26,418 nucleotides of DNA, from IMG/VR virus record IMGVR_UViG_3300038423_000025, positions 1-26,418 of that record; one strand, given 5' to 3'. This document shows, piece by piece, positions 2,998 to 26,418 of this stretch. Every line of letters begins with the position of its first letter. The stretch's first letter is position 1. The DNA comes from a virus. A model generated the notes under the pieces. The model saw nothing but the letters and a program-made list of their open reading frames with translations, had not been told where the DNA came from and did not search any database. The position numbers and the translations under genes are program-made.

Positions 2998-3019
2998 AAC
3001 GCAATTGGCGCAGTTTATT

Positions 3020-3052
3020 GACCGTTTTGAGGACTCTCTTAATGGTCTTTTT
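3020..3052 (+). terminator. terminator after the serine recombinase
   Basis: GACCGTT pairs with AATGGTC, with one G-U pair. An inner GAG with CTC stem closes a GACT loop, and TTTTTCTT follows. On the opposite strand the G-U pair becomes A-C and no T-run follows, so it acts for the + strand. It lies between the convergent recombinase and tail genes. Confidence 0.7.
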
Positions 3053-3063
3053 CTTGCGATTAT

Positions 3064-3444
3064 TTAATAACTGAATACTGATAAACTTCCCGTAACAAAA
3101 TCAGCGATAGGATGTGACCCCGAAGCCAAAACTATTGACATTGTAAATCCTGCTGTTCCTTGTGTCATTGGAAAGCCCAATGACATTGTAGGAGCGGAAA
3201 TATTACTGCCTGACCAACCGTTAAAATGGACTGAATAATTGCTACTTGATGGTAAATTATTAAATGAAACATAATATGTTCCGGTTAAACTTCGTGAAGG
3301 TTGGCAATTAAGCGAACCATTATATATAAAACCGGAAGCAGAACTATAAGTCATATATGCCCAAGCAAATACACATTGGCCACGTAATTGACTGGATATT
3401 TCAGCAACAATAAAATCGTTACTGGGAAAAAATGTTGTACTCAT
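3064..3444 (-). CDS. small beta-rich protein at the end of the tail module
   Basis: This 126-residue protein is not recognised. It is rich in Ser, Gly, Tyr, Phe and Asn, has few charged residues, and has the alternating polar and aromatic pattern of beta-sandwich tail or virion decoration proteins. It is the last gene of the minus-strand late module, 39 bases after the membrane protein at 3484-3801. The region before its ATG is A/T-rich (TATTTATAAT) without a Shine-Dalgarno. An accessory tail-tip or virion surface protein fits the position and composition. Function is inferred from context only. Confidence 0.6.
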   Translation of the reverse strand: MSTTFFPSNDFIVAEISSQLRGQCVFAWAYMTYSSASGFIYNGSLNCQPSRSLTGTYYVSFNNLPSSSNYSVHFNGWSGSNISAPTMSLGFPMTQGTAGFTMSIVLASGSHPIADFVTGSLSVFSY

Positions 3445-3483
3445 AAATTATAAATAGATTGTTGTTTGATTAAAAATAGAAAA

Positions 3484-3801
3484 TTAAGGGTCAATCTTGA
3501 TTCCGCCATCAATTCGTTTTAAGATTTTGCTGAAATTGGTTGCAGCCACATTTCTGTTGTCCGCAATTTCCTTATGAAATTCAACTACAATATTTTTATC
3601 CCTTTGGATGGATGAATTATCCACATCCTTGATTTGAGTTTCAAGTAGAGCAAAATTATTTGTCATATCATTGTGTAATGAAATTATTTCTTGCGGTGCT
3701 TGTTTAATAGCAATTACAACATCAACAGATTGCCAAAGAATTGGTAAAACTAAAATACAGCTTGCCAATATACCAATGTGTGTCCATTTTATCTCTCTCA
3801 T
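3484..3801 (-). CDS. one-pass membrane protein with coiled coil (candidate holin or spanin-like)
   Basis: This 105-residue protein starts with a short basic segment (MREIKWTH), then a hydrophobic stretch at residues about 9-32 that fits one membrane helix. A mostly charged helical part follows (about 35-100) with coiled-coil character. There is no lipobox and no cleavable signal sequence pattern, so it is probably anchored with the C-terminus outside. Its place at the end of the tail genes is where many phages keep lysis genes, and size and topology would suit a holin-like or spanin-like protein. No endolysin is recognised beside it, so lysis is a guess. A superinfection-exclusion or other membrane protein is equally possible. 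Confidence 0.65.
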   Translation of the reverse strand: MREIKWTHIGILASCILVLPILWQSVDVVIAIKQAPQEIISLHNDMTNNFALLETQIKDVDNSSIQRDKNIVVEFHKEIADNRNVAATNFSKILKRIDGGIKIDP

Positions 3802-3844
3802 ATTATATTATAAATAGTAAATTGTTTTTATAACTCTATTTTAT

Positions 3845-4303
3845 TTAACTGCTTAAACTACAACTAACCCATTTTAGACCTGTATAAACAAATAATGAAC
3901 TGGTCATATTGGATATTGAACCAGAAGTTCTCAAATAAAATGAACCTGTAAATAAAGCAGATGAAGTATTATAGGTTTTAACTGAACTGGAATATGGCAT
4001 TATATTTGCATAACTTGCAATTATTGAATTGAGTGCATTACTTGCACTTAAAGTATAACTTCCACTCAAAGTATAGGATGAACTGATTGAAGATGAAGCC
4101 CAACTGCAACTTGTCTGAATTGAACTGCTCCAATAGGAAGCGGTTAAAGAATAGCTTGAAGAAATACTTGAACTTGCCCAACTTGCTGATACCGTTGCGA
4201 TAAATGGACTCCAACTTGAACTTAAAGAGTAGCTTGAAGAAATTGAACTTGAAGCCCAAGAACTAGAAATCTGAATAGAACTTGACCAATAGCTTGAAGT
4301 CAA
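3845..4303 (-). CDS. Ser-rich tail repeat protein with paralogous C-terminal cap; 5' end missing
   Basis: The frame gives 152 residues only if the TTG at 4303 is used. No ATG is available upstream, yet the frame stays open back to 4411 and still encodes the same repeat there, so the true 5' end appears lost. Residues 4-29, 30-55 and 56-81 are three 26-residue repeats sharing SWASSSISSSYSL or close variants. After about residue 100 comes a cap (MPYSSS, then TGSFYL, then GLKWVS) that parallels the last 45 residues of the tailspike at 4669-8187. It was probably the end of a tail fibre or fibre-like adhesin. It is either a remnant, is expressed from TTG, or is fused by a frame change to the zinc-ribbon frame overlapping it (4263-4628). 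Confidence 0.55.
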   Translation of the reverse strand: MTSSYWSSSIQISSSWASSSISSSYSLSSSWSPFIATVSASWASSSISSSYSLTASYWSSSIQTSCSWASSSISSSYTLSGSYTLSASNALNSIIASYANIMPYSSSVKTYNTSSALFTGSFYLRTSGSISNMTSSLFVYTGLKWVSCSLSS

Positions 4304-4375
4304 AGCATAGCTTGAAGAAATTGATGAACTTGCATAGCTCGCAGAAATTGCATTGGATATTGAACCTGTCCAAGA
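4061..4375 (-). repeat. four tandem 26/27-codon Ser-rich repeats
   Basis: Units lie at 4375-4295 (27 codons), 4294-4217, 4216-4139 and 4138-4061 (26 codons each). Each contains (W/Y)ASSSISSSY followed by a Leu codon and a small residue. The first unit lies upstream of any usable ATG. The same SSSWASSS, SSSY and TASYA patterns recur in the tailspike (4669-8187) and in 8731-9372. Such low-complexity modules are common in phage fibre proteins and can recombine between genes. Confidence 0.8.
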
Positions 4376-4628
4376 CCCCGATAGGGCAAGTAAGAATCCA
4401 TCGATTTGTTTTTATATTAAATTGAAGAGCACCACATTCTTCCAGTTTGGTTGTATTGGAGTTCCTTTCAACATTATTAATAGCACATTTTTTACACAAA
4501 CTGTTTGCATCTGATGCTTTGATAAATCCATGTTTGGTAGTGTATATTAACTTAGTTTTACATTGAGGACATTTTCTTGTATAAGAAGAAATTGTTTTAT
4601 GGGAAAGCTTATTTTTCTTTTTCATCAA
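4263..4628 (-). CDS. zinc-ribbon (homing-endonuclease-like) frame, truncated at its 3' side
   Basis: The first 83 residues look genuine. They carry a basic N-terminus, CPQC at residues about 20-23 and CKKC at about 45-48, then a Trp segment ending in LTCPI where a second ribbon would be expected. From about 4380 downwards the DNA is tail repeat read in the wrong frame, so residues 84-121 are nonsense. The layout resembles the N-terminus of the protein at 152-577 and of phage mobile HNH endonucleases. It was probably a free-standing homing-type gene that landed between or inside tail genes and lost its nuclease half. The start region is A/T-only. The segment GALQFNIKTNRW also looks a little like fibre caps, so a shifted fusion cannot be excluded. 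Confidence 0.5.
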   Translation of the reverse strand: MMKKKNKLSHKTISSYTRKCPQCKTKLIYTTKHGFIKASDANSLCKKCAINNVERNSNTTKLEECGALQFNIKTNRWILTCPIGVLDRFNIQCNFCELCKFINFFKLCFDFKLLVKFYSDF

Positions 4629-4668
4629 TATAATAAAATATAAAATATAAAATGAAAACCTTCAAAAA

Positions 4669-7600
4669 TTATACAAAACTGGAGCTCCAATATCTCAATC
4701 CATCCCAAATATATAATAATCTATTGGAAGAACCTGAAATAAGAAAATATACCGAACCTGTTTGTAAATTTGAGCTTGAATTAAATGTATGAGTTGAACT
4801 TGAATAAGGTAAAGTATTTGTTATTATTGCATTACTTGAAGTATTGGCATAACTTGCAGTTCCTAACAACGAAGCAGTTATTACCGAACAGGAAATATTT
4901 CCTATAACATCCAAAGTATTTTTCGGAGTTATTGTTCCAATACCAACCCGCGAGTGTGCTGGATTACCACCATCGGTAGTCACTCTCATCATCGGGCCGG
5001 TTGTGTGGTCAAGTTCTCCATCTCCCATAAAGTCAAAGAATGGTTGTTTTAAGAAACTTGATTGAAAGATTATTGGGCCTTGAGCAGAGCCTATTATTGT
5101 TGAACCACTGACTATGATTGAATATCCCGAACTATATAAATCTATAGTATTAGTTGCATTTGGTGCATAATGATTTATAAATCCTGAATCATTGTAAGAA
5201 TTGCCCCCCAAATATAATTGTTGATAACCAACTCCATCATTATCCCAATCATTCAATACTGAAAATTTTGCTCCCATATTACTACTGCCTGTGCCTTCAT
5301 GACCAATATGGATACCATCACCATTATAACCTTGAATAATATAATCGGGTGTATTCTGACTGAAACCAATAGTTCCAGTTCCAACAATGCTACCGGAATC
5401 ATTTATATCCAAAGAATAAGATGGTGAAGTATTGTTTATTCCAATAAAACTATTTACATCAGTTATGTCGGGTAAATTTGTGTTTGTGCCAGCATTGGAA
5501 GCAGAAATTGCATAAGAAGCAGTCCCATAAAACCAAGATGCACTTATAGTATTATTTGTAGTAACATCAAAATTAGGATTAAAATAAAGGTTTGATGCAC
5601 TGAGGGCTGGATACAATATTATTGGAGATTCATATTTTGCATAAGGTAAAACTTTACCATATTCCAAATGAGGAACAGATGAAGTTAAATAATAGTTAAA
5701 ATTATAACCATTATATTCATCATATAATATTATTTTGTAATAATCTACGGGATTTGTCGGTGGAGGAGCACTCCAAGATATTTGATAATAATAACTGTTT
5801 GATGTCATTCCATTTTCCACATACCCCAATGAAAGTGGCTTGGTCGAATAATATGGAACTCCATTTATTACCTTGCAACTGTATATGTTAAAAATGAATC
5901 TATCCCAATTAGTATCATCAAAAATACCTGACCCCATAATTCTATGTAATGACCCTGAACCTAAACTATTATAGTTGTAGGAAGAACTGATCAGATTGGA
6001 AATTATTCCACCACCATTTAATATTACATTATTATTGAAAGTTGCTAATGCATGATTTGTGGTAAATGATGCAGATGTTATAGTAACCGAAGAAGGAGGG
6101 TCAGGCATCGCACCTGCTCCACCTTGGTCCATCACCATCAAGGATGTATTTACATAATCCAATTGTTGCTTTTGATAATTTGGTTTAACTACCGATAAAA
6201 CCGAATGAGGAAATTCTATTGACCAGCCAAGATTATTTGAGCCATCTCTGGTCAAAGTCAAATAAAGGTCAGAGTCAAACATATTGTCTGAGCAAACATA
6301 GGAAGCTTGATTGGTTAATTTTGGGTCAACAATAACATCTGCCCAACCAACTTCATTATAATTACCAATTATTATATGACTACTTCTTTGATAATAAGGA
6401 TAAACCCCAAGAGCTGCAAAAAGGAAATATTGAGAACTTACCCCGTGACAACCCTGAATATATGCTTCTTGTTTTGTTGAATCAATAATACAAGCTCCCA
6501 GACTGAATACACTGCTTGACGGCCATTGGGTTCCGGCCGTGTCACTTTGACCTGAATCGGAGTTTGGATTCCATCTGCCAATTCCACCAAAATCTGCATT
6601 AATTACTCTTGAATGGTCACAAGATAAATAAAGTCCGTTAGCCAATCCAGAAAATACACAATGACCATAGACGGCTGCAGCATTGTCACCTGTTGCATCC
6701 AACCATAAACCAATCAAGCCCGGAAGAACTTTTGGAACTACACCCAATTGAGTTGCGGAAAAATTTACTCTTGGATTAATCAATGAATAACTGTCACCAA
6801 ATGCACAATTATCAAATTCAACCTGATTAAAGCCTACACAATAAACCACTGCACACATTTGTTGCCAACACCAGAAGCCAATGTCTCTTGCAGTAAAGTT
6901 GATAGCAGCTACTCCATTATCAACTCTCATTTGTGGTGTGCCAACAGTGATAAAAGCACTTTGAGTAGATGAATTACTTGAAGAAATTGCAGTAGCACCG
7001 GTATAAATAATTTGTGTATTGAATTTTCCACCACCCTCAATTGCATAATTTGTTGAATATCCCTGTGGTGGATAAAGTGAACCACTTAATACAATATTGG
7101 GAACGGAAAAAGAAACGGGAGTATTACAATTATATCTACCGGGTGCAAATACCAACTTACTTCCAATTGGAAAACTGCCACTTGAAAGGTCTATATTGGC
7201 AAAGTTTATTGGATGATTGATTGCACTTTGTATCATTGCTCCACAATCATTAAAAGTATTGATGGATTGTGTGCCATTCATATTGATGATATACATTGGC
7301 TTTGGACTAGCATATAAATGAATAACGGGCAACGGAGCAGAATTAGCCAAACTTGAAGTAAAAGTGTAACTTCCACTTAATGATGAACTTGCCCAAGACG
7401 AACTTAAAGATGAACTGGCAAACAATGAACTTGATGCCCACGAAGCACTTCTTGCACTATCCCCGATAGGAGCAAAGCGAGCATCAGAAGATTGAGCAGT
7501 ATAACCATATTGTCCCTGATTTTGTGGAGTAATTATTTTAGAAACATATTGGCTTGTAACCAACATATTACTTGCATAACCTGAACTACCACTTGGTAGA

Positions 7601-8187
7601 ATTGAAAATGGAGTATCTTTAATTGTTCCACGAATCCAACCTTTATAAGTCAATCCCTGTATCAAATTACAAGTTGCGGTGTTATTGCTACAAGTAATTG
7701 GGAATGTATCACCCAAAACAAAATAATTATTCCAACCAACATTCTTATAAGCAGGTTGAAGGTCAATTGATGTTCCTTTCCAAGTATTCAGAATGTCAAA
7801 AATAACTGAACAATAAGAACCTGAATAAAGAGAACCTGAAACGATGGAATAAGAAGCAGTTCCATTAGAACCTGTCGTTAAATTGATATACCAATCATTT
7901 GTAGCTTCCAGATTACATTGAATCTTATAAGCATTTGCTGGTATATCCAATGAAGTCGGCGGAATACTACCTGTAATCGGGTCACTGGGAATAATAAACG
8001 AACCGGAAGCAAGGGGATAATTGATTGGGCGAATATCAAAACTTTGTGTTATCAAAGTTCCATTACCAAGAATAAAATTAAAATATGTTAGCATAATAGA
8101 TTCACCAATCTTTTCAATCCCACCGGATTGACCAGAATATAAATAGTTTGTTTTACTCCATAAAATTGAATAATCTTTCCAAAACAT
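4669..8187 (-). CDS. tailspike/tail fibre with beta-helix domain
   Basis: This 1172-residue modular tail adhesin is probably the main receptor-binding or polysaccharide-degrading protein. The N-terminal part (about 30-210) is beta-rich and likely attaches to the tail. Residues about 235-290 carry the Ser-rich repeats (SSSWASSSLSGSY). Residues about 300-640 match right-handed beta-helix spikes, with PGRYNC, then GGGKFNTQIIYTG, then many G-x-N and Y-N-E type turns. A fibronectin-III-like stretch follows (about 795-850). LDINDSGSIVGTG (about 915-930) and VGIGTITPKNTLDVIG (about 1080-1100) are typical fibre distal repeats. The end (about 1125-1172) is a cap shared with 3845-4303. No catalytic residues can be assigned. 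It starts five bases after the upstream gene; a later ATG at about residue 32 is possible. Confidence 0.82.
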   Translation of the reverse strand: MFWKDYSILWSKTNYLYSGQSGGIEKIGESIMLTYFNFILGNGTLITQSFDIRPINYPLASGSFIIPSDPITGSIPPTSLDIPANAYKIQCNLEATNDWYINLTTGSNGTASYSIVSGSLYSGSYCSVIFDILNTWKGTSIDLQPAYKNVGWNNYFVLGDTFPITCSNNTATCNLIQGLTYKGWIRGTIKDTPFSILPSGSSGYASNMLVTSQYVSKIITPQNQGQYGYTAQSSDARFAPIGDSARSASWASSSLFASSSLSSSWASSSLSGSYTFTSSLANSAPLPVIHLYASPKPMYIINMNGTQSINTFNDCGAMIQSAINHPINFANIDLSSGSFPIGSKLVFAPGRYNCNTPVSFSVPNIVLSGSLYPPQGYSTNYAIEGGGKFNTQIIYTGATAISSSNSSTQSAFITVGTPQMRVDNGVAAINFTARDIGFWCWQQMCAVVYCVGFNQVEFDNCAFGDSYSLINPRVNFSATQLGVVPKVLPGLIGLWLDATGDNAAAVYGHCVFSGLANGLYLSCDHSRVINADFGGIGRWNPNSDSGQSDTAGTQWPSSSVFSLGACIIDSTKQEAYIQGCHGVSSQYFLFAALGVYPYYQRSSHIIIGNYNEVGWADVIVDPKLTNQASYVCSDNMFDSDLYLTLTRDGSNNLGWSIEFPHSVLSVVKPNYQKQQLDYVNTSLMVMDQGGAGAMPDPPSSVTITSASFTTNHALATFNNNVILNGGGIISNLISSSYNYNSLGSGSLHRIMGSGIFDDTNWDRFIFNIYSCKVINGVPYYSTKPLSLGYVENGMTSNSYYYQISWSAPPPTNPVDYYKIILYDEYNGYNFNYYLTSSVPHLEYGKVLPYAKYESPIILYPALSASNLYFNPNFDVTTNNTISASWFYGTASYAISASNAGTNTNLPDITDVNSFIGINNTSPSYSLDINDSGSIVGTGTIGFSQNTPDYIIQGYNGDGIHIGHEGTGSSNMGAKFSVLNDWDNDGVGYQQLYLGGNSYNDSGFINHYAPNATNTIDLYSSGYSIIVSGSTIIGSAQGPIIFQSSFLKQPFFDFMGDGELDHTTGPMMRVTTDGGNPAHSRVGIGTITPKNTLDVIGNISCSVITASLLGTASYANTSSNAIITNTLPYSSSTHTFNSSSNLQTGSVYFLISGSSNRLLYIWDGLRYWSSSFV

Positions 8188-8192
8188 TCATT

Positions 8193-8729
8193 TTAATATC
8201 CATTCATTTGATAATATAGCAATCCTAATCCTTCACTATAACAACCTAAAAAATCTATCTTATAGTATTGATAACTTACATTACCCGGCAAATTAAATGA
8301 TTGTGAAACGGGTGTGTCAGGATTTAAGCCTGCAATTACACTATTCAAGTATGTCCAATTTTGATTATCATTACTACCATAATTATTCCAGTTCTGTTGA
8401 TGAAACAATTGCATATAATATGATACTGCATAATGTGAACTTGAAAGTTGAACATAAAATTGACCTGTTTGTTCTCCGCTAGTCCAATAAAGTGAACCCG
8501 TATTTTTATCACAAGCTCTATAAGGTTGAAATAAATTATTACCGGGATTATACCAAGTATTTGCAGTAATTATCCATCCTGAACCACTTAATGAACTACT
8601 ATCACTTGTCATTTGTGGTATTAACTGCCTAATTTGTGTAGAACTTGAAATTGCACTACTTCCTGTAGCAGGTGAAAGTGAAGCCACAAAAGCGGTATCA
8701 AGCAAAGTTAAGTTAGTGATAGCATTCAT
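8193..8729 (-). CDS. tail adhesin with discoidin (F5/8 type C)-like domain
   Basis: This 178-residue protein has a Ser/Thr-rich N-terminus (1-45), followed by a segment that follows the F5/8 type C (discoidin) pattern. That pattern is an Ala-Cys-Asp lead (YRACDKNTGSLYW), a central AVSYYMQLFHQQNW, the hallmark GSNDNQNWTYLNSV at about 117-130, and a YQYYKIDF strand near the end. Discoidin domains bind glycans or other surface ligands through loop tips. In phage tails they serve host recognition. It is followed after five bases by the tailspike, and the upstream gene ends one base before it, so the three are translationally coupled. Its ATG has no clear Shine-Dalgarno. The domain call rests on pattern recognition by eye. 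Confidence 0.72.
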   Translation of the reverse strand: MNAITNLTLLDTAFVASLSPATGSSAISSSTQIRQLIPQMTSDSSSLSGSGWIITANTWYNPGNNLFQPYRACDKNTGSLYWTSGEQTGQFYVQLSSSHYAVSYYMQLFHQQNWNNYGSNDNQNWTYLNSVIAGLNPDTPVSQSFNLPGNVSYQYYKIDFLGCYSEGLGLLYYQMNGY

Positions 8730-8730
8730 T

Positions 8731-9372
8731 TTACGGGATTACTTTGACATAGGCAGCCAATACTTGGCTTTCAATATTTCCATAAGAAGTAAGCGAAAGA
8801 ATGGCTGATTTACTACCACTCAAAGAATTGTTTAACAAAGTACCATTCAAATTCTGCCAATTAGTATTAAATGTAATTCGCCTATTGGAACCAGTTGCTG
8901 GAATATAAACTACACTTGCACCCGGTCCACCACTTGAACTTGCAAAGTTTATACTTCCGCTGGTTAAAATGTAATAATATGGAACAGTCAAATTGACATT
9001 GTAACTACCAGTATTAGCTGATGAAGTATAGGCGGTTAAACTTTGACTTAGCAATAAAATAACTGATGAACTATAATAATAAGTTGCACTTGAAGTTGTG
9101 TAGGAAGCGGTAAGTGTATTCACCGCCCAACTTGAAGTAATTGGATAAGTTGAAGCAGTTGTCAAGGTAGCACTTCCAGCATTCAATGAATAACTTGAAG
9201 TTAAAGCATAGCTTGATGAAAAACTACCAGTAGATAATGATACCAAAACACTTGCCGAATTAAATGTTACTACAGCATTTGGTAACGAAGAAAGTTTTTC
9301 TTCAACAAAACTTGAAGAATTAGCATTGCGTTGAGTTATCAACACATCAAATGGCGAATAAATTATACTCAT
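8731..9372 (-). CDS. Ser/Thr/Tyr-rich tail repeat protein
   Basis: This 213-residue protein is not assigned to a named family. The short N-terminus (MSIIYSPFDVLITQ) is the least repetitive part and may be the attachment segment. Residues about 45-125 are low complexity with SSSYALTSSYSL, SSWAV and TASYTTSS, the same vocabulary as the fibre repeats at 4061-4375 and in the tailspike. Residues about 125-213 form a Gly-, Ser- and Asn-rich beta region ending in a hydrophobic strand (VLAAYVKVIP). It lies between the large tail protein at 9437-11341 and the discoidin-like protein, almost touching the latter. A fibre or fibre-adaptor role is inferred from position and repeats. Confidence 0.65.
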   Translation of the reverse strand: MSIIYSPFDVLITQRNANSSSFVEEKLSSLPNAVVTFNSASVLVSLSTGSFSSSYALTSSYSLNAGSATLTTASTYPITSSWAVNTLTASYTTSSATYYYSSSVILLLSQSLTAYTSSANTGSYNVNLTVPYYYILTSGSINFASSSGGPGASVVYIPATGSNRRITFNTNWQNLNGTLLNNSLSGSKSAILSLTSYGNIESQVLAAYVKVIP

Positions 9373-9436
9373 ATTACATTTCTATTCAGATATTTCAATA
9401 AATCCAAGTGTTATTAAATTATTATTCATATTATTA

Positions 9437-11341
9437 TTAAAATTGGTCAAGTGCTATTCTCTTCCAAGAATTTAATCCTGAACAAATATAAATATAATCA
9501 TTATCCATTGTAATAAGACCGCCATCCATATAGCCATAAGTGCTTGCGGTTGAACTTAAAATTGTATTATTTGGAATAATTACCGGAACTATATTTCCAT
9601 CAGCACACAAGTTATTATTAGTATCACAAGTCAGAGTTACACTTGAATATATTGTTTCCCAAACTATATTACTGAAAGTTGGTTGTCCGTAAGTGCGGGT
9701 ATAACTTGGCGGATATGCGTCGCAAGAGCATTGTTTATTTGAAGAACTATACCACATAACATTTGCACAATTCCAATTGACCCACCTTTTGACACCGGGA
9801 ATCAATGGACCACCATACAAACAAAAGAAAACATAATTACTTACCGTAGAACTACCACTTAACCAGTTGAACGTGGAAAATGTATCAAAATCAATCATAG
9901 TATAATTTCCATACATTGTATTTCCATCTGTGTAACTGTTTGTGACCGGCGAGCCATTTGGCTGTAATATCTCCCAATTACTTAAAGAACTTGTTGAAGG
10001 TGAAGTATAAGTAATAACTGATGAACTTCCGGGGATGATACTCACAAGTGGCACACCCGGTACCAAGGTTCGGAAATTTGGAACATAACCAACACTGCCG
10101 GAATAAATATAAGGGCAATTATCCAGTTCATTCAAGTATTCGGTTACAATATTGAATAAATTATTTTGGTCACTTGTATTTAAACCGGCTGTATTGCCAA
10201 TAGCTGCAAATCTTAAAGTTTGGCCGGCATTAGCATAATTTACCGAACTTAAATAAAGTGTTGTTCCAGTATTTGTCCAATTACCAACTCCACCCAAAAG
10301 AAATGTTGGAGGATTTGAAAATCCACCCATTGAACTTACTCCCTGCTGACTACCACCTGTTGTTGGTGTATTGTTTATTTGATAAGTTCCACCATTGGAA
10401 CCATTGGAACCAGCAAAGAAAACATTGTAAATTGGATTGGTTAAATTACTTGTGGTTGTGTTACCCGTAGAACTCATACCCGTTGAAATACTACTTGTGG
10501 ATATATTCAAGTCACTATAAACGTGCAAAAAATACGGATTACCAATGTCACAAGTAAGACCAGCAACCGGTGTCAAACTGCTTGTGGTACCAATATTACT
10601 TAAAAAAACATTGACATTACAATTTTCACTGGCAGAAACAATAAGAAATTCGGGAGCTATAATACCCGTATCTGCATAACTGTTACCGTCACTTACTAAA
10701 CCTGTCAATGTATGGGCAGATGCATTAGCATAAGCTCCATTCCATTGTAGAGTATAACTTGAACCTTTAAGATTAGCTGCGTCTCCTGCAACGGTTGCAG
10801 CCGCAAATGGATAAACACCAACGAATTTGTCCCACAAACTGCAACTCTTCAAAGAAGCTGTTAAATTATTTACCGCACTTTGCGTGTAACGGGAACCCGT
10901 CAAATAAAGTGAGCCAGTCCCAATAAGTTGTCCCTGTTGCGGCGTTACAAAAGTCAAAACATAATTATTCTGATTTGTCAAAACACCAAGCCAATCATTC
11001 CAAGTATAAGTTCCATTTGCTAAACTATCATCTTCTCCTGAAACTGTAACCGTGGATAATTCATAACCTTCAATGGAAGTGGTATTGTAGAGTGTAAGAG
11101 ATTGTCCAGAACTTACCGAACCACCAAATTGATTTATTGTGGATATTTCATTTTGCAAATAATTAAACCAACTATTTGCTTTGGACCAAGCAGTAGCCGT
11201 TGGGTCGCCAAGGAAAGTGTATGCGTCAGTTCTTGTATATGGCTGACCACTTATACCAGCACTTTGTATTGTGATTGAACCACTCATACTCGAAGTGGTA
11301 GAGTAGGGCGTTACTTGGTCTATGTAATTGGGTTGGTTCAT
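9437..11341 (-). CDS. large beta-rich tail-tip protein
   Basis: This 634-residue protein has almost no charged clusters and many Ser, Thr, Gly, Asn and Tyr. Residues about 165-225 carry a WDKFVGVYPF, then NLKGSS, then LQWNG and YADTGI pattern. This motif set recurs in phage and bacterial surface proteins that fold like concanavalin/LamG sandwiches. The domain continues to about residue 400. A middle region (about 420-590) is rich in Trp and Tyr. The C-terminus (MDGGLITMDNDYIYICSG, then SWKRIAL) has the strand-turn-GLxxW form also seen in the caps of 3845-4303 and 4669-8187. It follows the 923-residue protein by 30 bases. A glycan-binding tail-tip role is likely but not shown. Confidence 0.65.
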   Translation of the reverse strand: MNQPNYIDQVTPYSTTSSMSGSITIQSAGISGQPYTRTDAYTFLGDPTATAWSKANSWFNYLQNEISTINQFGGSVSSGQSLTLYNTTSIEGYELSTVTVSGEDDSLANGTYTWNDWLGVLTNQNNYVLTFVTPQQGQLIGTGSLYLTGSRYTQSAVNNLTASLKSCSLWDKFVGVYPFAAATVAGDAANLKGSSYTLQWNGAYANASAHTLTGLVSDGNSYADTGIIAPEFLIVSASENCNVNVFLSNIGTTSSLTPVAGLTCDIGNPYFLHVYSDLNISTSSISTGMSSTGNTTTSNLTNPIYNVFFAGSNGSNGGTYQINNTPTTGGSQQGVSSMGGFSNPPTFLLGGVGNWTNTGTTLYLSSVNYANAGQTLRFAAIGNTAGLNTSDQNNLFNIVTEYLNELDNCPYIYSGSVGYVPNFRTLVPGVPLVSIIPGSSSVITYTSPSTSSLSNWEILQPNGSPVTNSYTDGNTMYGNYTMIDFDTFSTFNWLSGSSTVSNYVFFCLYGGPLIPGVKRWVNWNCANVMWYSSSNKQCSCDAYPPSYTRTYGQPTFSNIVWETIYSSVTLTCDTNNNLCADGNIVPVIIPNNTILSSTASTYGYMDGGLITMDNDYIYICSGLNSWKRIALDQF

Positions 11342-11371
11342 TAGATGATAATAATATAAATAGTAGTGATT

Positions 11372-14143
11372 TTATGATAATAGCGATAAACAATTCTGTA
11401 AATCCTTATACAAAGCAATGCTTAAAGGATATTGAACGTGAGTGCCAGCCGAGTCGCCATATACATCAATTCCATACGGGTCTGGATAATTTGTTTGTCG
11501 CGGGTCAAAGAAATTTGTAAATGAATTACAGAATTGAAAAGTTCTCGGATTAAAATTTGGAATATAGTTATTTTCATCATTGATATAAAATCCTTGTGCT
11601 GGAAATGAATAAGCAGAAGCAAACCAAATAGGTTGCCAATTTGCCCAAGCTTCAACTAAGCAAGGTGTATCACTTTTATAAACTAATGGCTGACCGTGAA
11701 TAACAGGCAACCAACAATCCACGTCTCCCGTATCTCTTTGATTTGGTTGAATAGTTAAAGTGAATATAGAACTTATATCTCCGCCAGCGCCACTATCTTC
11801 ATCATCAGCACCCGGTATTTCGTCACCTGCACCTGTTACAAGTCCCTGCGAAGTGAATGGAGCAAACAAATAAGTTTTATCAGGCAGTTGCCTATATTGC
11901 CCCAATGTTATATTTATTTGATTGCCAGTTGAAGGTGTAATAGAGATACCGTAATTATTTTGGACTGGCAAACGAGTTGCACGAACTTTATAGATGCAAT
12001 AGCCTTGAGCAGGAATTCTTTTTAGTCCAGTATAGGTTGGATAAAGTGAAGGAATGGAGTAAAATGTTGTAAATGAATTACCCGGCGAACCATCCAAAAC
12101 ATAACTAAAACATTCATAAGCATCGGGGATAAATTCCAGTTCAAGTGGAACATCTCCCCAATCAGTTTCAACTAATAAATCAAATGAAACTGGGAAAGCA
12201 TTACCATTCTTTATTGAATAATTGAAACCTGATGAGTCACTTAAATAATTTCTTCCGCCCATTGGTGGAATGTCAGCTTCATTGGTTTTTGATATAAAAT
12301 CATAAGGTGGTGGCATATAAGTTTTGGAAACCATAATGCTCATTGAATTATTATTCAGCTTACCGCCATCATATAATCGCCACGGTGTTGTTGAATTTAA
12401 CGGACTAACATTTCTTAATTTGATTTTGATTGCAGTTGTATTGGATGGGTAAGCTAAATTATAATTATTGGTTGAACCCGAAGCCATTATTACATTTCCA
12501 TAAATATCATAAGATTGATTTGGATTGCCCCATTCACCCCAAAGAATAGGCATTGGACTACCGGAAGCTAATGTCATCCATTGTGAAGGTTGAGCTTGGC
12601 AAGATTGTTCTATCAAATTATATTTAGGTCCAAGGTCAACTGCAATTGAACCTGAAAAGAAACTTTCCGAAACAACCGAGCCAGAGAAATACAACATTCT
12701 CTCCCCATTTTGGAGCAAAGCTTGTTGTCTTGTGCTTGATGCAAGTATAGGTAACGAATTATCCCATTGACCAAAATAAGAATTAGAGTTTGGATAATTG
12801 TCAATAAACGTAACATTTAAGTCACCGATTGTTTCTGTCTCTAAAGCTATATTTATCGCTTCCAAATTTGGAGACACTACAACCGGAGTATTGGTAAAAA
12901 GACTTGGAGCCAATGAACCAACATAATTCGGTAAATCTTGGTCAACATAACAATTTATTGCTGGAACTGGCAAAGTAAAAGCTGACCAAACACCTTTAAC
13001 ATTCTTATCGGTAATTGACCAGAAGGCTACGGAATAATTACCATTTACAATAAAATCACTTTCATCATCGGGCATATCCGGTGCTGAAATAGTCATTGTG
13101 TTACTTGTCGGGTGAATTGCTTGTATTGGTTGTGGGTCCGAATTGGTATCATATATCATCCTTGAACAAATAACTGGCCCTTGAATGATACTATATCCCG
13201 TTGGTGGAGCAGATGCGGTAAAATTGATACTTCCGTTTCCCTGCACAATCGGTAAATTTATATTGGCAATCAAAGCGGACGTGCTTATATTATTGGAGCC
13301 ACTCGTTTCCCAAGTTACTCCGGTTGAAGGATAAGCCGAAGCCGTTCCGAATGAACTTACCAATGGTGGGTGAACAGGTGGTGCGCCTCCACCAGTCCAT
13401 TCAACTTGCCAGAAAAGTTGACAATTCCATATCCCCGCCATAGAAGCAGAATAATATAAATCATATTTATCAATATAACCAGCATACGGAAAATCCACTC
13501 TCCTACCACAATTTATTTCTAATCCATTTAATGCGTCATTCAGCGCATAAGAAAATTGAACACTTTTATATGCAGTCTGATTTGGGTAACTTGTAATTGT
13601 GTTTGGTCCACCCGAAAAATAACCACCAACTGGTTCTGCTCCGCCAATTAAACCCAAAGTTCCAAATAATTCCCCATTACCATCAAGTGATTGACTTGGA
13701 TATGCTACAGAATAACCACCGCATCCAATAGACGGGAACACATCTTTATCCGATACGCCAACTACCCAAGGTCCACTTAAAATACTATCATTAAGTAAAG
13801 TCATATCTTGGTTCATAATAGTATAATAATCAGCCTTTATTCTATTTATTTGTGTATTCCAAGAACAAGTATTATGCACGGGATAAAAATGACCTGAATA
13901 AGTAATGTAAGAAATTGATGAACTGAAAAGATTGCCGGGTGGAAAAGATGCAGAATTATATGGTGGAAATTCGTAATCAGGTTGTGTAACTTCTGGATAT
14001 TCCCAATAATTCACGTCATACTCATTCATTGGCCAAGTTCCTTCATCAACTTGAGCATTGACTAATGGAAGCAAATTTGCATTAGCTAAAGTAGCTAATG
14101 CATCCATATCTGATTTTAATATAGGAGTTCCACTGGTTGGCAT
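11372..14143 (-). CDS. very large beta-rich tail-tip protein of unknown family
   Basis: This 923-residue protein is unrecognised. It is rich in Pro, Tyr, Trp, Asn and Ser throughout, which suggests a string of beta-sandwich domains. Residues about 770-795 form an acidic Gly/Asp/Glu stretch (EIPGADDEDSGAGGD), either a flexible linker or a metal-binding loop. No signal sequence, membrane helix or catalytic motif is seen. It is the largest gene between the tape measure and the tailspike. It is preceded by the 122-residue protein with a 12-base gap. In siphoviruses this slot holds the tail-tip hub, side-fibre anchors or baseplate-like proteins. It may therefore be the central fibre or receptor-binding platform. 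That is inference from position. Confidence 0.6.
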   Translation of the reverse strand: MPTSGTPILKSDMDALATLANANLLPLVNAQVDEGTWPMNEYDVNYWEYPEVTQPDYEFPPYNSASFPPGNLFSSSISYITYSGHFYPVHNTCSWNTQINRIKADYYTIMNQDMTLLNDSILSGPWVVGVSDKDVFPSIGCGGYSVAYPSQSLDGNGELFGTLGLIGGAEPVGGYFSGGPNTITSYPNQTAYKSVQFSYALNDALNGLEINCGRRVDFPYAGYIDKYDLYYSASMAGIWNCQLFWQVEWTGGGAPPVHPPLVSSFGTASAYPSTGVTWETSGSNNISTSALIANINLPIVQGNGSINFTASAPPTGYSIIQGPVICSRMIYDTNSDPQPIQAIHPTSNTMTISAPDMPDDESDFIVNGNYSVAFWSITDKNVKGVWSAFTLPVPAINCYVDQDLPNYVGSLAPSLFTNTPVVVSPNLEAINIALETETIGDLNVTFIDNYPNSNSYFGQWDNSLPILASSTRQQALLQNGERMLYFSGSVVSESFFSGSIAVDLGPKYNLIEQSCQAQPSQWMTLASGSPMPILWGEWGNPNQSYDIYGNVIMASGSTNNYNLAYPSNTTAIKIKLRNVSPLNSTTPWRLYDGGKLNNNSMSIMVSKTYMPPPYDFISKTNEADIPPMGGRNYLSDSSGFNYSIKNGNAFPVSFDLLVETDWGDVPLELEFIPDAYECFSYVLDGSPGNSFTTFYSIPSLYPTYTGLKRIPAQGYCIYKVRATRLPVQNNYGISITPSTGNQINITLGQYRQLPDKTYLFAPFTSQGLVTGAGDEIPGADDEDSGAGGDISSIFTLTIQPNQRDTGDVDCWLPVIHGQPLVYKSDTPCLVEAWANWQPIWFASAYSFPAQGFYINDENNYIPNFNPRTFQFCNSFTNFFDPRQTNYPDPYGIDVYGDSAGTHVQYPLSIALYKDLQNCLSLLS

Positions 14144-14155
14144 AATATCATATTG

Positions 14156-14524
14156 TTAAATATAAACACCTAATGGAGAAGATGGTGCTTGAACCCAATA
14201 TCCGCCACCTTGATAGGGTGGTTGACCTATTGATGGAATAAGAGCAAAATAGTTTCCAGAATTAAGACCAAAAGGTATTATTACTTCTTGGCCAGCCGTA
14301 TAATTTCTACCCGAATCCCATTCACCAACAAAACCGGATGTTCCACCAATAGAAATATTACTTGGTTTTTTTGCAAGGATTAAAGTTGTTCCGTGAGTAT
14401 CAGAACGGACTAAAATATCACTAGAACTGTGTAATGTAATTCTAATAAGATATTCACGCAGCATATTCCATACATGCGTAAAACTATTTACGTCTGGAAC
14501 TCTATGTGGTAGCCAATTTTCCAT
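14156..14524 (-). CDS. small tail protein with carbohydrate-binding-module-like C-terminus
   Basis: This 122-residue protein has two parts. Residues 1-55 (LPHRVPDVNSFTHVWNMLRE onwards) are helical then strand-like and may be the virion attachment part. Residues about 66-116 show the W-x-S-G-x-x-Y-x-x-G-x-x-V spacing (GEWDSGRNYTAGQEVI), then NYFALIPS and a closing GYWVQ. This spacing is typical of CBM5/12-type chitin- or cellulose-binding modules found on phage tails and chitinases. It would bind a surface glycan. It lies between two tail-tip genes with short gaps. The module is too short for a firm family call. Confidence 0.6.
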   Translation of the reverse strand: MENWLPHRVPDVNSFTHVWNMLREYLIRITLHSSSDILVRSDTHGTTLILAKKPSNISIGGTSGFVGEWDSGRNYTAGQEVIIPFGLNSGNYFALIPSIGQPPYQGGGYWVQAPSSPLGVYI

Positions 14525-14552
14525 ATCTTTTTAATAAATATTATCATTATTG

Positions 14553-15398
14553 TTACAATCTTGTCCCATAAACATTTTGTGGCCATAGACCAAATTCCCA
14601 TTCTCTTTGCACCGTTATTGTTGAACCATGTCCATCCTTTGTGCTTGGTTGTTGCAACCAACCATAAAGATAAGGAATACTTACACCATAAGAACTTATC
14701 GCAGTTGGGTCATTTGGTTGTCCTAAACAAGCTGCCCAATTAGCCGGAACACTAGCATTAGTAGTTAAAGTTGCAACTGAAAATATTCTCCCCATATAAA
14801 CATCATAACCTGCCAATGGATAAGTTTTTGGAACAACTATTTCTTGTCTTAAAATAGGAACAGAAATCGGAACTGTTCTAAAACCCTGCATGTGTAACGC
14901 ATAAACTGCTGCGCTTGCGCTATTCCATAAAATACCCTGACTTGTTGCTGGTGTAGTTCCATCCGTCAAACAAGATGGATAAAGCATATTTCCACCGGTA
15001 TCAAATGCGGCAGGTGAATTACTAAAATCACGTTCCAAAGATGCAATCTGTGAACCTGTCAATTGAACTATCCAAGGAATTTCAGCCGCATTACAATATA
15101 GTAATTCTTTCTGGTTTGGTTTATAATGCATTGACCAATTTACCGTGACATAACTGCCACTGCCATATTGTATAATATTATTACTACTATCTGTTTCTGC
15201 ATCTATGGTGAATGTTCCCATAAATGGATTACCAGATTGAAAATCAATATTCCATCCTTTACCCCAATATACTGAAGCAGTTGCTCTAACATCTGGTTCA
15301 TTCCCTACTACAATTTGCTCAATATGCGGATACTTATTTTGATAATATTGTTCGTGTCTGCTACTTGTGCTTGGACTTATACCAAAGGAATTATTCAT
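14553..15398 (-). CDS. tail protein directly after the tape measure (probable distal tail/tip)
   Basis: This 281-residue protein is not recognised by sequence. It is beta-rich, with many Trp and Tyr and no membrane segment. Its N-terminus is polar (NNSFGISPSTSSRHEQYYQN) and its C-terminus ends in FGLWPQNVYGTRL. It follows the tape measure gene by 11 bases, the position that usually holds the distal tail protein in siphoviruses, and its length fits. It may therefore form the ring that closes the tube and anchors the tip proteins encoded next. The start ATG has an A/T leader without a clear Shine-Dalgarno. Confidence 0.6.
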   Translation of the reverse strand: MNNSFGISPSTSSRHEQYYQNKYPHIEQIVVGNEPDVRATASVYWGKGWNIDFQSGNPFMGTFTIDAETDSSNNIIQYGSGSYVTVNWSMHYKPNQKELLYCNAAEIPWIVQLTGSQIASLERDFSNSPAAFDTGGNMLYPSCLTDGTTPATSQGILWNSASAAVYALHMQGFRTVPISVPILRQEIVVPKTYPLAGYDVYMGRIFSVATLTTNASVPANWAACLGQPNDPTAISSYGVSIPYLYGWLQQPSTKDGHGSTITVQREWEFGLWPQNVYGTRL

Positions 15399-15409
15399 AT
15401 TGTTATTAT

Positions 15410-16588
15410 TTATCTAAAATATTGCCACCAAGAATTATTGGAATTATTTACCGTATTCTTAGCTATTGTTTCCAAAAATGTTATTTGTCTTTGATTATAT
15501 TGTTTCATTTGTTCCAAAGCGGATAATTGATTTTTTTGTATATCCAATTGAGTTGCTACTCCACCCATTCCACGAAAAGAAGCACCAAACATATTACCAC
15601 TTGCGGTCAATGAATCACTATAATCTTTGACTGATTTGGCGTGTTCTTTATATGCTGGAACAGTTTTAGTTCCTTCACCAGTAGGATTGGTCAATTCCTT
15701 GGTAATTCTATCAATTGCTTTTTGTATTTCCATAAAATCAATATCAAAAGGTTTTTTAGCAACATTACCAGCCATATTGATAGCACCCCAATTTATTGAT
15801 GGTCCTGCTGGTCCAATAGCTCCACCAAAATTTTGCGCTCTATTTTCAAGTTGAGCATAAAATTCACCCAATTCCGCACCTATTTGTGCAGTTCTTCCCG
15901 CTCCTTTTGACGCAACTTCAATCAATGTCTTGGTCAATTCCATTACTGCGGGAGCTAATTGAACCATTAAAATCAATCCAAGTTCCTTGAAACTATCACC
16001 TAACACCTTTAATGATACTGCGGTTCGTGTATCCATTATTTCGCCTGCACGTCTCATTGATTCACCAACTTCGTCAACATTGGTTTTTAATACAGGCATT
16101 ATTTCCTCAAATCCCCTACCCAATATATTACTTATTGGAGCAGCAATATTATCAAGTCCTTTAGCATTCTTTACTGCGTCACCAATATTCTTAAATAATA
16201 AATCCGAGCTACTTTTAGCTTTTATATCGGATGTGGATATTCCAAGGTCCGTAAATTTCTTTATATCTTCTTTACTACCACCAAGAGCTTTTTGTCTTGC
16301 GATTGCTACTTTACCAATAGCAGTTTCCAAAGCATTAAATTCAGTTCCACTTTCTTCGGCTGCTCTCTTTAAAATTTGGACTTGTTCTACCGTTGTTCCC
16401 AGTTGTCTAGCCGATTTAACAAGACCGGCTGCTAAATCAAATTCACTTGATACAAATGATTTAATAGCTTCAACTGAAAATGCACCAATAATCATTTGTT
16501 TCAATCCCGCAAGGCTGCTATTAACGGATTTTATTGCTGTATCCAATCCACTTTTATTACCCGTTATTTCAACCATTACTCTTGACAT
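15410..16588 (-). CDS. tail tape measure protein (short)
   Basis: This 392-residue protein sets tail length and probably passes into the host during DNA injection. Features seen are an N-terminal GNKSGLDTAIKSVNSSLAGL, a form typical of tape measures, followed by long amphipathic helices (about 25-120). There is an Ala/Gly-rich hydrophobic region with a possible membrane-active helix (about 195-230), then further helix up to the C-terminal NSWWQYFR. At about 1.5 angstrom per residue it predicts a tail of roughly 60 nm, short for a siphovirus. Its ATG overlaps the stop of the chaperone gene by one base (TAATG), with AGGA eight bases before it, so the two are coupled. No alternative frame-shift partner is present. 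Confidence 0.88.
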   Translation of the reverse strand: MSRVMVEITGNKSGLDTAIKSVNSSLAGLKQMIIGAFSVEAIKSFVSSEFDLAAGLVKSARQLGTTVEQVQILKRAAEESGTEFNALETAIGKVAIARQKALGGSKEDIKKFTDLGISTSDIKAKSSSDLLFKNIGDAVKNAKGLDNIAAPISNILGRGFEEIMPVLKTNVDEVGESMRRAGEIMDTRTAVSLKVLGDSFKELGLILMVQLAPAVMELTKTLIEVASKGAGRTAQIGAELGEFYAQLENRAQNFGGAIGPAGPSINWGAINMAGNVAKKPFDIDFMEIQKAIDRITKELTNPTGEGTKTVPAYKEHAKSVKDYSDSLTASGNMFGASFRGMGGVATQLDIQKNQLSALEQMKQYNQRQITFLETIAKNTVNNSNNSWWQYFR

Positions 16589-17199
16589 TATTTCATTCCT
16601 ATCTTATTTCTTAATTCTCTTTCCTCTTTACTTATCAAAACAATGGTTTCCATTTTATGAGCATAAAGAAGATAAGCAGATTGACTTTCAACCAAAGGTA
16701 AATTATAACAATCATTACGTGACCAGTTACATTCAGTCATTAAAGTAAAAATAATGGACTCTTCCGGTTCAACCGGATTGACCGATATATCACTTTCATT
16801 TTTATTTTTTAATTGATAATCGGGAATATCAGTTCCATTTCTTAAATAATGTGCGAAATTATGTATTTCTTTAATAAGACTAAATTTCTTAAAATTGTTT
16901 TTGATTTGTTCAATCGCTTCAATTATTTTTCCACTACCTCTTTCTTCCTGAAAATCATCATAAGTCGTGGAACAAACCAATATTGCAAAGGCATATTCTC
17001 CAATTAAGGTTATATCATTGACTAAAGCTTCATATATTTTGTTTATATCACAAAATAAATCATATTCACCTGTAATGAATTTACTTTTAGCAGTTTTTAA
17101 TAGAATAATATGACCAAGAGACAACGGTAACATTCTATATCCACATATAGTAGGTATAGTTGTAGTTACACGTTCGGTATAGCTCTTATAGGAACTCAT
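16588..17199 (-). CDS. probable tail assembly chaperone
   Basis: This 203-residue protein lies between the tube and tape measure genes, the slot of lambda gpG and its relatives, which coat the tape measure before the tube polymerises. The N-terminal half is helical and carries GHIILLKTAKSKFITG, typical of tail proteins that process long helical partners. The C-terminal part (TECNWSRNDCYNLPLVES, then QSAYLLYAHK) resembles the short helical domain common in siphovirus chaperones. Only one frame is present, so the usual G/GT programmed frameshift product is not evident. GGAG about 11 bases upstream of the ATG may serve as ribosome site. The stop overlaps the tape measure start. Confidence 0.65.
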   Translation of the reverse strand: MSSYKSYTERVTTTIPTICGYRMLPLSLGHIILLKTAKSKFITGEYDLFCDINKIYEALVNDITLIGEYAFAILVCSTTYDDFQEERGSGKIIEAIEQIKNNFKKFSLIKEIHNFAHYLRNGTDIPDYQLKNKNESDISVNPVEPEESIIFTLMTECNWSRNDCYNLPLVESQSAYLLYAHKMETIVLISKEERELRNKIGMK

Positions 17200-17226
17200 A
17201 TCTTTTATTCGCTCCTACAAGTTTAG

Positions 17227-17613
17227 TTAAGGTAAAGTCGTGCCGTCTGCTTTAACCCATTGAGTAGCTTCAAACGTATATTTAGCACCGTCATCTGACT
17301 TGAAATCAAGCTCTGCATCCGTGCAAGCCCAAGTTCCACTAATTTCCGTTGTCCAAGGGTCTGTCCAAGTAAGAGTATCACCGGGATTTCCCAATGGAAT
17401 ATTGCTACCACTCGTATTCAATAATATTGTTGCAGTTGCAACTTTCTTTCTTTTACCCAAACCAATATAAATGAAATTATCCGTATTATCGGTAATCTCT
17501 TTTTTATCAGATTGTTTTTTTAACTTGAAATCAAGTGTTGAACCACTAAACAATGTATTGGTTGTATAAACGTGATAATAAACCCCGCTTCCAAATCCAT
17601 TCATATATGACAT
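17227..17613 (-). CDS. major tail tube protein
   Basis: This 128-residue protein is a probable subunit of the tail tube. It begins MSYMNGFGSGVYYHVY. Strand-turn patterns follow, with ATATILLNTSGSNIPLG (about 60-76) and GTWACTDAELDFKSDD (about 94-109), in keeping with the tube beta-sandwich fold. It lies between the tail terminator gene and the chaperone, the usual siphovirus order. The ATG at 17613 is preceded by AAGAAGGA with good spacing, one of the clearest ribosome sites in the window, as expected for an abundant protein. The family call is positional plus fold pattern. Confidence 0.7.
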   Translation of the reverse strand: MSYMNGFGSGVYYHVYTTNTLFSGSTLDFKLKKQSDKKEITDNTDNFIYIGLGKRKKVATATILLNTSGSNIPLGNPGDTLTWTDPWTTEISGTWACTDAELDFKSDDGAKYTFEATQWVKADGTTLP

Positions 17614-17631
17614 ATTTATTTTCCTTCTTTG

Positions 17632-18084
17632 TTATGATGTTCTAGCACAAGTCACTTCTAACTTTTGACTGGCAATCCAGCCATCAGTCAAAGGTGTTGT
17701 TTCTAATCCATCTTCTATTACTAATTTGTAAATTATATTGGGAGTATAGCTTCCCATTATTCCTTCAATTCCATTCATTAAGAATGGATTGAATACCAAA
17801 TCACTAACCGTCTCAAATTCATTTGCAGTTGTTCCTTCACCCGTATCTGTAAGACGAATAGCGGATGTCAATAATTCCAATTGTGCTTTATGTAATCCTG
17901 TTTTAAGAGCCTTTTCATAAGGTTGTTCATCAAAACATTGAACTCTAACATTTGGAAATTCAATACCTTTTCTATCTAAAACATCATATTGTCCATAAAT
18001 CTGCCAGTTAGTAATACTACCACTTGCAAATGAAGCAGATATAACTTGCTTGGCTGCGCTAACTATGTAATTTTGTATCAACAT
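17632..18084 (-). CDS. probable tail terminator protein
   Basis: This 150-residue protein fits the tail terminator (lambda gpU-like) that caps the tube and joins it to the head. The N-terminus is a helix (NYIVSAAKQVISASF). The middle holds NVRVQCFDEQPYEK, then a helix (LHKAQLELLTSA). A strand-rich end, with LVIEDGLETTPLTDGW then KLEVTCARTS, is typical for this family. It starts two bases after the neck protein stop and ends 18 bases before the tube gene. Similarity to a specific family is not certain. Confidence 0.62.
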   Translation of the reverse strand: MLIQNYIVSAAKQVISASFASGSITNWQIYGQYDVLDRKGIEFPNVRVQCFDEQPYEKALKTGLHKAQLELLTSAIRLTDTGEGTTANEFETVSDLVFNPFLMNGIEGIMGSYTPNIIYKLVIEDGLETTPLTDGWIASQKLEVTCARTS

Positions 18085-18086
18085 AT

Positions 18087-18707
18087 TTAAGACCTGTTAA
18101 AGTGTTCAGCAGGTATATCCAGTTTCTTAGATAAATAAGTCACTATATCTGAATTTATCTTTTGTAATCCTGCTTCTGCGCCTTCTTCTTTTAATTTTGT
18201 AACCAATCCTCTATTTATTTTACCTTCAACATCATTAAAGAAACTGCCTTTAATAACACTTCCTGTTTTTGTTGCTGGTTCTGCTCCACCGAATGAAGCT
18301 CTTGTAATTCCTGTTACACTTGCAAATGATTTATGAACATATTGTAATAACTTCTTTATACCGGGTAAATAACCAGCTTTTGTAAAACCAATGCTGGAAT
18401 ATCTTCTACCCATCAATTTTTTCACATCTGCTTCTAAATCTATTATTTCTTCACCGGATGCTTGTTTCTGTTTAATGACAACCATTTCTGCAACAGTTCT
18501 ATCAGGATATTTTGATGACATTTGTTCCAAAGATTGTTTTACTTTTGACCTGTCTGCTTTTGGTGTTTGTTTAAGAGCTTCTCTGCATCCATCATATAAC
18601 TTAAAATTTATTGCATCTTCTATTGTCTTACTTGTTTCCTGTAAATATAAATTCAAGTTTCTCCTACAAATTGCATCATCAACTTTAACTGTCATTAAAT
18701 CGCTCAT
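18087..18707 (-). CDS. probable neck/tail completion protein
   Basis: A 206-residue protein when started at ATG 18707 (MSDLMTVK), which lies five bases after the previous stop. A longer start at 18743 would overlap that gene, so the shorter one was chosen. It is helix-rich, basic and Lys-rich. It has VKQSLEQMSSKYPDRTVAEM near residues 60-80, and a C-terminal helical end (SDIVTYLSKKLDIP). In siphoviruses the slot between the stopper and the tail terminator holds HK97 gp10-like or minor-tail-Z-like neck proteins. This fits the size but the match is not strong. It is close-packed with its neighbours. Confidence 0.6.
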   Translation of the reverse strand: MSDLMTVKVDDAICRRNLNLYLQETSKTIEDAINFKLYDGCREALKQTPKADRSKVKQSLEQMSSKYPDRTVAEMVVIKQKQASGEEIIDLEADVKKLMGRRYSSIGFTKAGYLPGIKKLLQYVHKSFASVTGITRASFGGAEPATKTGSVIKGSFFNDVEGKINRGLVTKLKEEGAEAGLQKINSDIVTYLSKKLDIPAEHFNRS

Positions 18708-18711
18708 TATT

Positions 18712-19032
18712 TTATCGTTTAATAGTTGGTTGATTACAAACAAAAGTCCAAAAAATATTATTCGGTTGTCGGATATGTTTAATAACTAACTTATATCCAT
18801 TGAAATAAATGTAATCATTCAATTGTGGATATATTCCATTGAATTGACTGATTCTTACCTTCATTCTAAAATCTGTATTTTGGAGAAAAGCAGTTTCACT
18901 ATTAAGAATTTGATAATCAATCGTATGTGGAATACAAAGATAATCTTCACCTTGCCAAGTAAACATTTGACTGCCTAGTTCTTCTTCTATTTCAGTCAAG
19001 TCATTTTCAACTATATCTTTTATATTAAACAT
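18712..19032 (-). CDS. head-tail stopper/joining protein (FII-like)
   Basis: A 106-residue protein started at ATG 19032 (MFNIKDIVEN). An upstream start at 19068 would translate the terminator hairpin, so it was rejected. It has a strand-rich core: TWQGEDYLCIP at about 28-38, FRMKVRISQFNGIYPQLNDY in the middle, and IYFNGYKLVIKHI near the end. The D-Y-I-x-x-N-G-Y-K turn is typical of small head-tail joining proteins like lambda gpFII or the Gifsy-2 homologue. It is the first gene after the capsid gene and its terminator. Confidence 0.65.
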   Translation of the reverse strand: MFNIKDIVENDLTEIEEELGSQMFTWQGEDYLCIPHTIDYQILNSETAFLQNTDFRMKVRISQFNGIYPQLNDYIYFNGYKLVIKHIRQPNNIFWTFVCNQPTIKR

Positions 19033-19039
19033 ATTGTTT

Positions 19040-19080
19040 AAGAAAAAAGGATGGATGGATTTAACCACCCACCCTTTTTG
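19040..19080 (-). terminator. directional terminator after the major capsid gene
   Basis: On the minus strand GGGTGGGTGG pairs with CCATCCATCC over ten bases, two of them G-U, with a TTAAAT loop and a TTTTTTCTT tail. On the plus strand the two G-U pairs become A-C mismatches, so it acts mainly for minus-strand transcripts. It begins about 24 bases after the capsid stop codon, so it should give extra short capsid mRNA and lower expression of the downstream tail genes. Confidence 0.8.
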
Positions 19081-19103
19081 TGTAATTATTATTCTGTTCT
19101 AAA

Positions 19104-19997
19104 TTACGGATGTGTTCCATCGGTTATTCTGGTCAAAGCTTGTGTTTGACCTTTGGCATAACCATAGAGTAAATAATAGCCAATATAAGTTAATCCTGTC
19201 CAGGGATTACGCGACAATCGTAATTGTAATGTCAATTCGGACTCTGGTTCAGTTGCTTCTTCCACTTCTTCAATTCCAGATGCAACACTAATGACTGGCA
19301 ATCTTGTTGCAAGAGTCAAAGCTTCTTTACCAACACCAATACCAGCAAGACCTTCACCCAAATTATTAAAGTTTGGAGCTTCATAAACGGCAACGCCACC
19401 CAATCTTCCGATTGTACCTTCACGAATTAATTCGGTAGTACCGATTTGATAATTATTCTTAACATCGTTCAATAGCATTCCATAATAAGGAACGCTCAAT
19501 ACCAATGATTTTGGACTAGTTGAACCACTTTGTTTCAATGTTCCAATGACAGTTCTATATGCATTATCAAAAGTAAATGTTGAACCTGTATAAGAAGCTG
19601 TTCCATACGTCGCCATAGTAAATTGTGAATTGATACCTGCCCATACTACGTTGACTACACCAAACATATTACCTTCAAGGAATGTATTGATTAGACGTGG
19701 CATTGTAATAGTTGACACTTCATAATCGGTAAAAGCCGAAACGGAGTGCAATACGTCACTTAATGAAATCTGCACTTGTGAACCAGTTGCGTCCTGTGCA
19801 GTATATCCAGCCGTTCTTGTATAAAGAGAAGCTGATACTGCGGTTGGATAACGTGTATTGATTGCTCCATAAGCAGCAGCGGTTTCTCTACTGAAATCCG
19901 TATGAAATGCCAATAAAGGTGGCACTATCCTCTGAAGTACTGGTAGCGATTCTTCAGCAATCGCGGTCAATGTTAGACCATTTAAGAGGTTACTCAT
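19104..19997 (-). CDS. major capsid protein
   Basis: This 297-residue protein is the main head shell subunit, of the HK97 fold by position and by sequence pattern. Residues 1-45 are a helical N-arm. Residues about 75-95 (SQVQISLSDVLHSVSAF) lead into a helix and loop region. Residues about 165-225 show the alternating strand and helix pattern of the A-domain (LVLSVPYYGMLLND; GGVAVYEAPNFN). The C-terminal part (about 260-297) is beta-rich. It follows the scaffold gene after 29 bases and precedes a strong terminator. The ATG has AAGGA only about 20 bases upstream, so its ribosome site is weak by classical standards. No cleavage site for the S49 protease can be assigned by eye. Confidence 0.78.
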   Translation of the reverse strand: MSNLLNGLTLTAIAEESLPVLQRIVPPLLAFHTDFSRETAAAYGAINTRYPTAVSASLYTRTAGYTAQDATGSQVQISLSDVLHSVSAFTDYEVSTITMPRLINTFLEGNMFGVVNVVWAGINSQFTMATYGTASYTGSTFTFDNAYRTVIGTLKQSGSTSPKSLVLSVPYYGMLLNDVKNNYQIGTTELIREGTIGRLGGVAVYEAPNFNNLGEGLAGIGVGKEALTLATRLPVISVASGIEEVEEATEPESELTLQLRLSRNPWTGLTYIGYYLLYGYAKGQTQALTRITDGTHP

Positions 19998-26413: not shown

Positions 26414-26418
26414 TAACC

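Follow-up and report, generated by a model that had tools for sequence, protein, structure and literature searches.

The stretch of DNA analysed here (the window, 26,418 nucleotides in full) comes from an environmental metagenome and represents a small phage that carries a GpA-type terminase and a serine integrase. On its minus strand, a zinc-ribbon open reading frame (ORF, 4628–4263; NIKTNRWILTCPIGVLDRF is a stretch read within it) can start at TTG 4628 or ATG 4625 and closes with a stop ending at 4263. Its upstream portion (4384–4628) is the 5′ part of a zinc-ribbon gene without the 3′ end, containing two CxxC knuckles and a third, CPxC, that is cut off. Directly adjoining on the same strand lies a headless Ser-rich tail-fibre gene (3845–4383), consisting of repeats and a C-terminal domain and missing the 12-residue native head. 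Its frame is open from a TAA at 4414–4412, which lies within zinc-gene DNA and closes the frame upstream, down to 3845, and the codon list shows no ATG, GTG or TTG before TTG 4303. A run of four Gs occupies 4379–4376, and the step from the zinc frame to the tail frame is +1; a first-pass annotation had given this run, the frame coordinates and the +1 relation, all of which agree with the window sequence. A promoter and terminator scan of the sequence found no more of either than in shuffles.

We scored coding potential by codon usage, as a sum of log-likelihood ratios with the small phage's own genes as the training set. Between 4628 and 4384 the zinc frame scored +3.3, compared to −28.5 and −61.1 for the other frames, which contain 4 and 9 stops, respectively. 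Between 4381 and 4266 (38 codons) the tail frame scored +9.6 versus −18.9 for the zinc frame, indicating that the coding signal changes frame at the junction; where the zinc ORF goes on across the tail repeats (4263–4382, minus strand), it is out of frame, has a negative codon score and is non-coding. The codon scores, together with homology and the ORF coordinates, bear out the earlier description of a coding zinc frame followed by a headless Ser-rich frame. That description had put the junction near 4375–4380, and while the switch is indeed abrupt, comparison with the jumbo phage described below places the exact breakpoint a few bases earlier, at 4383/4384.

Scanning IMG/VR revealed three relatives of this locus. 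One of them, 3300038426_000025 (16,359 bp, from a third sample), is the same small phage, with 99.97% identity over window positions 3176–19534, and was the sole match in exact-pattern scans using the DNA of the tail body, of the zinc side and of the window from 3182 onward. The other two, 3300038424_000251 (365,299 bp) and 3300038429_000195 (95,273 bp), come from separate samples and represent a T4-like jumbo phage, whose major capsid protein is gp23-like (PF07068), with closest named matches that include Flavobacterium and Microcystis phages. Since the jumbo phage has its own gp23 capsid and its own terminase (PF03237), and the GpA-type terminase of the window was looked for in it and found absent, the two are different phages. 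Genome-contig scans with the capsid and integrase proteins yielded no match. Searching 50,697 phage records by tblastn likewise gave no match for the zinc frame, its jumbo relative or the other zinc protein of the window, nor for the tail and fibre proteins, for which low-complexity filtering may hide Ser-rich queries and the tail query was approximate, being one Ser short in one repeat.

The tail half of the locus has an intact counterpart in the jumbo phage. Window positions 4257–4383 (minus strand) form a 127-bp tract, an assembly-graph node, that is 100% identical to the end of both jumbo contigs, and that carries the same repeats in the same reading frame; since both contigs end there, the tract in common with the jumbo tail gene is at least 127 bp. 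By blastn and flank comparison, 4383 is the last shared base, and 4384 and everything upstream of it is unrelated to the jumbo tail gene. Across the breakpoint, the jumbo contigs continue into a native head (L036:19840 onward) that begins with an ATG and that the window copy lacks, reading MAITLDWQKRIL up to the breakpoint and SGSWTGSISNAISASYASSS (beginning SGSWTGSI) after it, without any zinc frame. In the jumbo phage, the breakpoint falls within a motif, DWQ..IL..G.W.G.I, that recurs twice more in an adjoining 1496-aa tail gene, which argues that head plus body is the ancestral order and that the window copy has lost its head. From the head motif only, we infer the direction of transfer. 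None of the four contigs differs in the run of four Gs, which the jumbo phage reads in frame with its ATG; this rules out a missing base or sequencing error in the run and speaks against the +1 shift that had been suggested there.

On the zinc side, a single relative turned up, a 179-aa multi-zinc-ribbon protein encoded by the jumbo phage (L023:1306–1845; G002:135235–135771), which shares with the window the CPxC..CxxC spacing and the segment that follows it (TYDPITHLYTITCP / QFNIKTNRWILTCP). Used as a query, this protein matched the window from 4586 to exactly 4383 through its residues 65–134 (31% identity, E 6.7e-5), in an alignment ending ..LYTITCP in the jumbo protein and ..RWILTCP in the window. 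As the alignment ends at the breakpoint, the zinc frame of the window is interrupted within its third knuckle, CPxC, at the very base where tail-gene sequence takes over, whereas the jumbo protein is complete. Aligned with an independent zinc-ribbon protein, the zinc frame scored 81, with 63 as the best of 2000 shuffles, which, along with the codon scores, shows that the frame is more than chance. The locus had been thought to contain a mobile endonuclease-type gene, a proposal that finds no backing here: neither the zinc frame nor its jumbo relative showed a Pfam match or a nuclease domain, including HNH and GIY-YIG for the zinc frame, although such a domain could have been encoded in the 3′ part that is missing. 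NCBIfam gave no match on the zinc side, the jumbo relative included, PHROG gave a weak one (E 0.039) to a family whose function is unassigned in PHROG, and none of the contigs scanned carried an intact zinc gene identical in DNA to that of the window. A second zinc-ribbon protein is encoded at 152–577 on the plus strand of the window, with CPKC..CRDC spacing like that of the jumbo zinc protein and no match in the phage database.

At the join, therefore, two unrelated sequences abut at one base, and each is homologous elsewhere to an intact gene, as expected of an illegitimate junction. An assembly or library chimera, in which an assembler or a chimeric molecule joined a zinc side from the small phage to a tail body from the jumbo phage, could produce the same appearance. 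A de Bruijn assembler with a largest k of 127 leaves exactly 127 bases at a branch. Both jumbo contigs end exactly 127 bp beyond their divergence from the window, and both tracts shared between the phages have exactly this length, with jumbo contigs ending there; moreover, the native head of the tail body is seen only in the jumbo phage. End overlaps of this kind, of length maxK, are known to be left at graph branches by metaSPAdes and MEGAHIT (PMC10914622). However, the left flanks at the join (the zinc side and the jumbo head) have no sequence in common, and an assembly graph, which needs crossing reads, could not have formed the join without molecules that span it. The same base-exact junction is present in 3300038426_000025, which is identical to the window over 4628–3845 and differs by five SNPs, all of them elsewhere, so that this argument and the second assembly together lead us to take the join as real. 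Contig breaks in two further samples also imply the junction: because the jumbo contigs stop one k-mer (127) past the divergence, zinc-to-tail k-mers are probably present in the assembly graphs of both jumbo samples too. In tetranucleotide composition, 3000–4256 resembles the small phage (0.70) more than the jumbo phage (0.51–0.56), a weak indication for a segment of 1.3 kb. We consequently consider a chimera unlikely. The 10-mer CCTATCGGGG, which may represent microhomology, has just two occurrences in the window, one at the break (4376–4385) and the other at 7461–7470, inside the second shared tract.

This second 127-bp tract (7423–7549, minus strand), a perfect match to the beginning of the jumbo contig, lies inside the next gene upstream, a fibre gene (8187–4669), and hence two tail genes a few kilobases apart have DNA in common with one jumbo phage. 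A contig from another sample, 3300009518_000021 (G004), follows the window from 26418 to 7423 with three mismatches in 18,996 bp and then passes directly into jumbo sequence, so that its fibre gene has another C-terminal half, containing GDVPVGCVVAWLQ (L045 18870–19101). In the window the 3′ half of this gene is long and includes PVIHLYAS.., and the alternative, collar-like GDVPVGCVVAWLQ half is common to the jumbo phage. The two halves switch at an 18-bp repeat, within TGGGCATCAAGTTCATTG, which is present in both phages, so the exchange in the fibre gene looks homologous. The second tract and the alternative 3′ half show, at the level of sequence, repeated exchange between the phages. A tail-fibre switch driven by a serine recombinase was considered and rejected, as the alternative 3′ half is attached without inversion and has no stored copy in the window; the serine recombinase of the window matches phage integrases. 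We also observed a similar C-terminal segment, PYSSS..TGS.YF.ISGS...LY.WDGL.W.S.S, in fibres of both phages (window 3845–4040 and 4669–4900; L037:16800–16989). Both the window and 3300009518_000021 terminate precisely at 26418, where a GC-rich sequence resembling a palindrome (GGTTACGGAGCGCGTTCCG) is possibly a cohesive-end site; position 26418 is not a genome end, as 3300017931_000063 (L054:1–1432) continues 1432 bp beyond it.

The arrangement of contig ends could alternatively mean that the jumbo tail locus contains an insertion of the small phage, whole or in large part, with small-phage DNA lying between the ends of the jumbo contig. Consistent with this, the 365-kb contig begins at window 7549–7423 and ends at 4383–4257 in one orientation, so that both of its ends join the window consistently, and G004 comprises 19.0 kb of small-phage DNA running straight into the jumbo start. 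Yet G004 enters only 105 bp of jumbo sequence, an insertion would require loss of window 4384–7422, and the same contig ends are explained by a short shared stretch in one jumbo tail gene (DWQ head, repeats and collar), making this arrangement barely plausible. The broader idea, that the jumbo phage holds all or much of a small temperate phage in its tail-fibre locus, or else that trading of fibre ends makes hybrids common in these samples, is very unlikely. Lastly, an expressed fusion, in which a +1 frameshift at GGGG would join the zinc-ribbon head and fibre tail into one functional protein, is almost certainly not what the locus encodes: a +1 step does connect the frames, with the G run rightly placed, but the GGGG is native jumbo sequence read in one frame, the metal-binding knuckle is severed on the zinc side, the relatives that had been named in advance as telling against fusion, carrying an ATG-started tail gene and no zinc frame, are exactly what the jumbo contigs supply, and, unlike those of a programmed +1 frameshift, the two frames do not descend from a single gene whose relatives preserve both.

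We therefore favour, at a probability of roughly 0.77, a reading of the sequences in which the junction is a real scar of non-homologous recombination, left by exchange of tail modules between two unrelated phages, with both genes broken. This is in line with the first-pass proposal of two genes joined by deletion or illegitimate recombination, which is supported by the jumbo tail gene having its own ATG and no zinc frame. According to this model, the two phages would share a host and trade tail modules through recombination within or close to the repeats, and a Ser-rich tail-fibre body, ATG-started in the jumbo phage of the sister samples, would have been linked at 4383/4384 to internal sequence of a zinc-ribbon gene. 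The join would have deprived the zinc gene of its 3′ end and the tail gene of its start, such that neither original protein would be made. Any translation of the tail body would begin at TTG 4303, a weak start in its frame, perhaps through re-initiation following the zinc ORF, which ends at 4263. In kind, the event is ordinary phage mosaicism, a gene-swap scar, and involves no new fused or frameshifted protein.

The locus thus shows, at base resolution, what an exchange of tail genes that failed or came at a cost has left behind, the partners being a small integrase phage and a T4-like jumbo phage from sister samples. Automated gene calling would yield two misleading products here: a zinc protein whose end is nonsense, and a fibre that starts at TTG. 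Unrelated phages are known to exchange receptor-binding modules, for example the Alteromonas phages A5 and V22 (PMC10579305), in which near-identical receptor-binding DNA occurs across families, as it does here between the small phage and the jumbo phage. In contrast to A5 and V22, the exchange here pairs a small phage with a GpA terminase with a T4-like phage of 365 kb, has a broken, out-of-frame junction on one side, and is deduced from metagenome contigs only.
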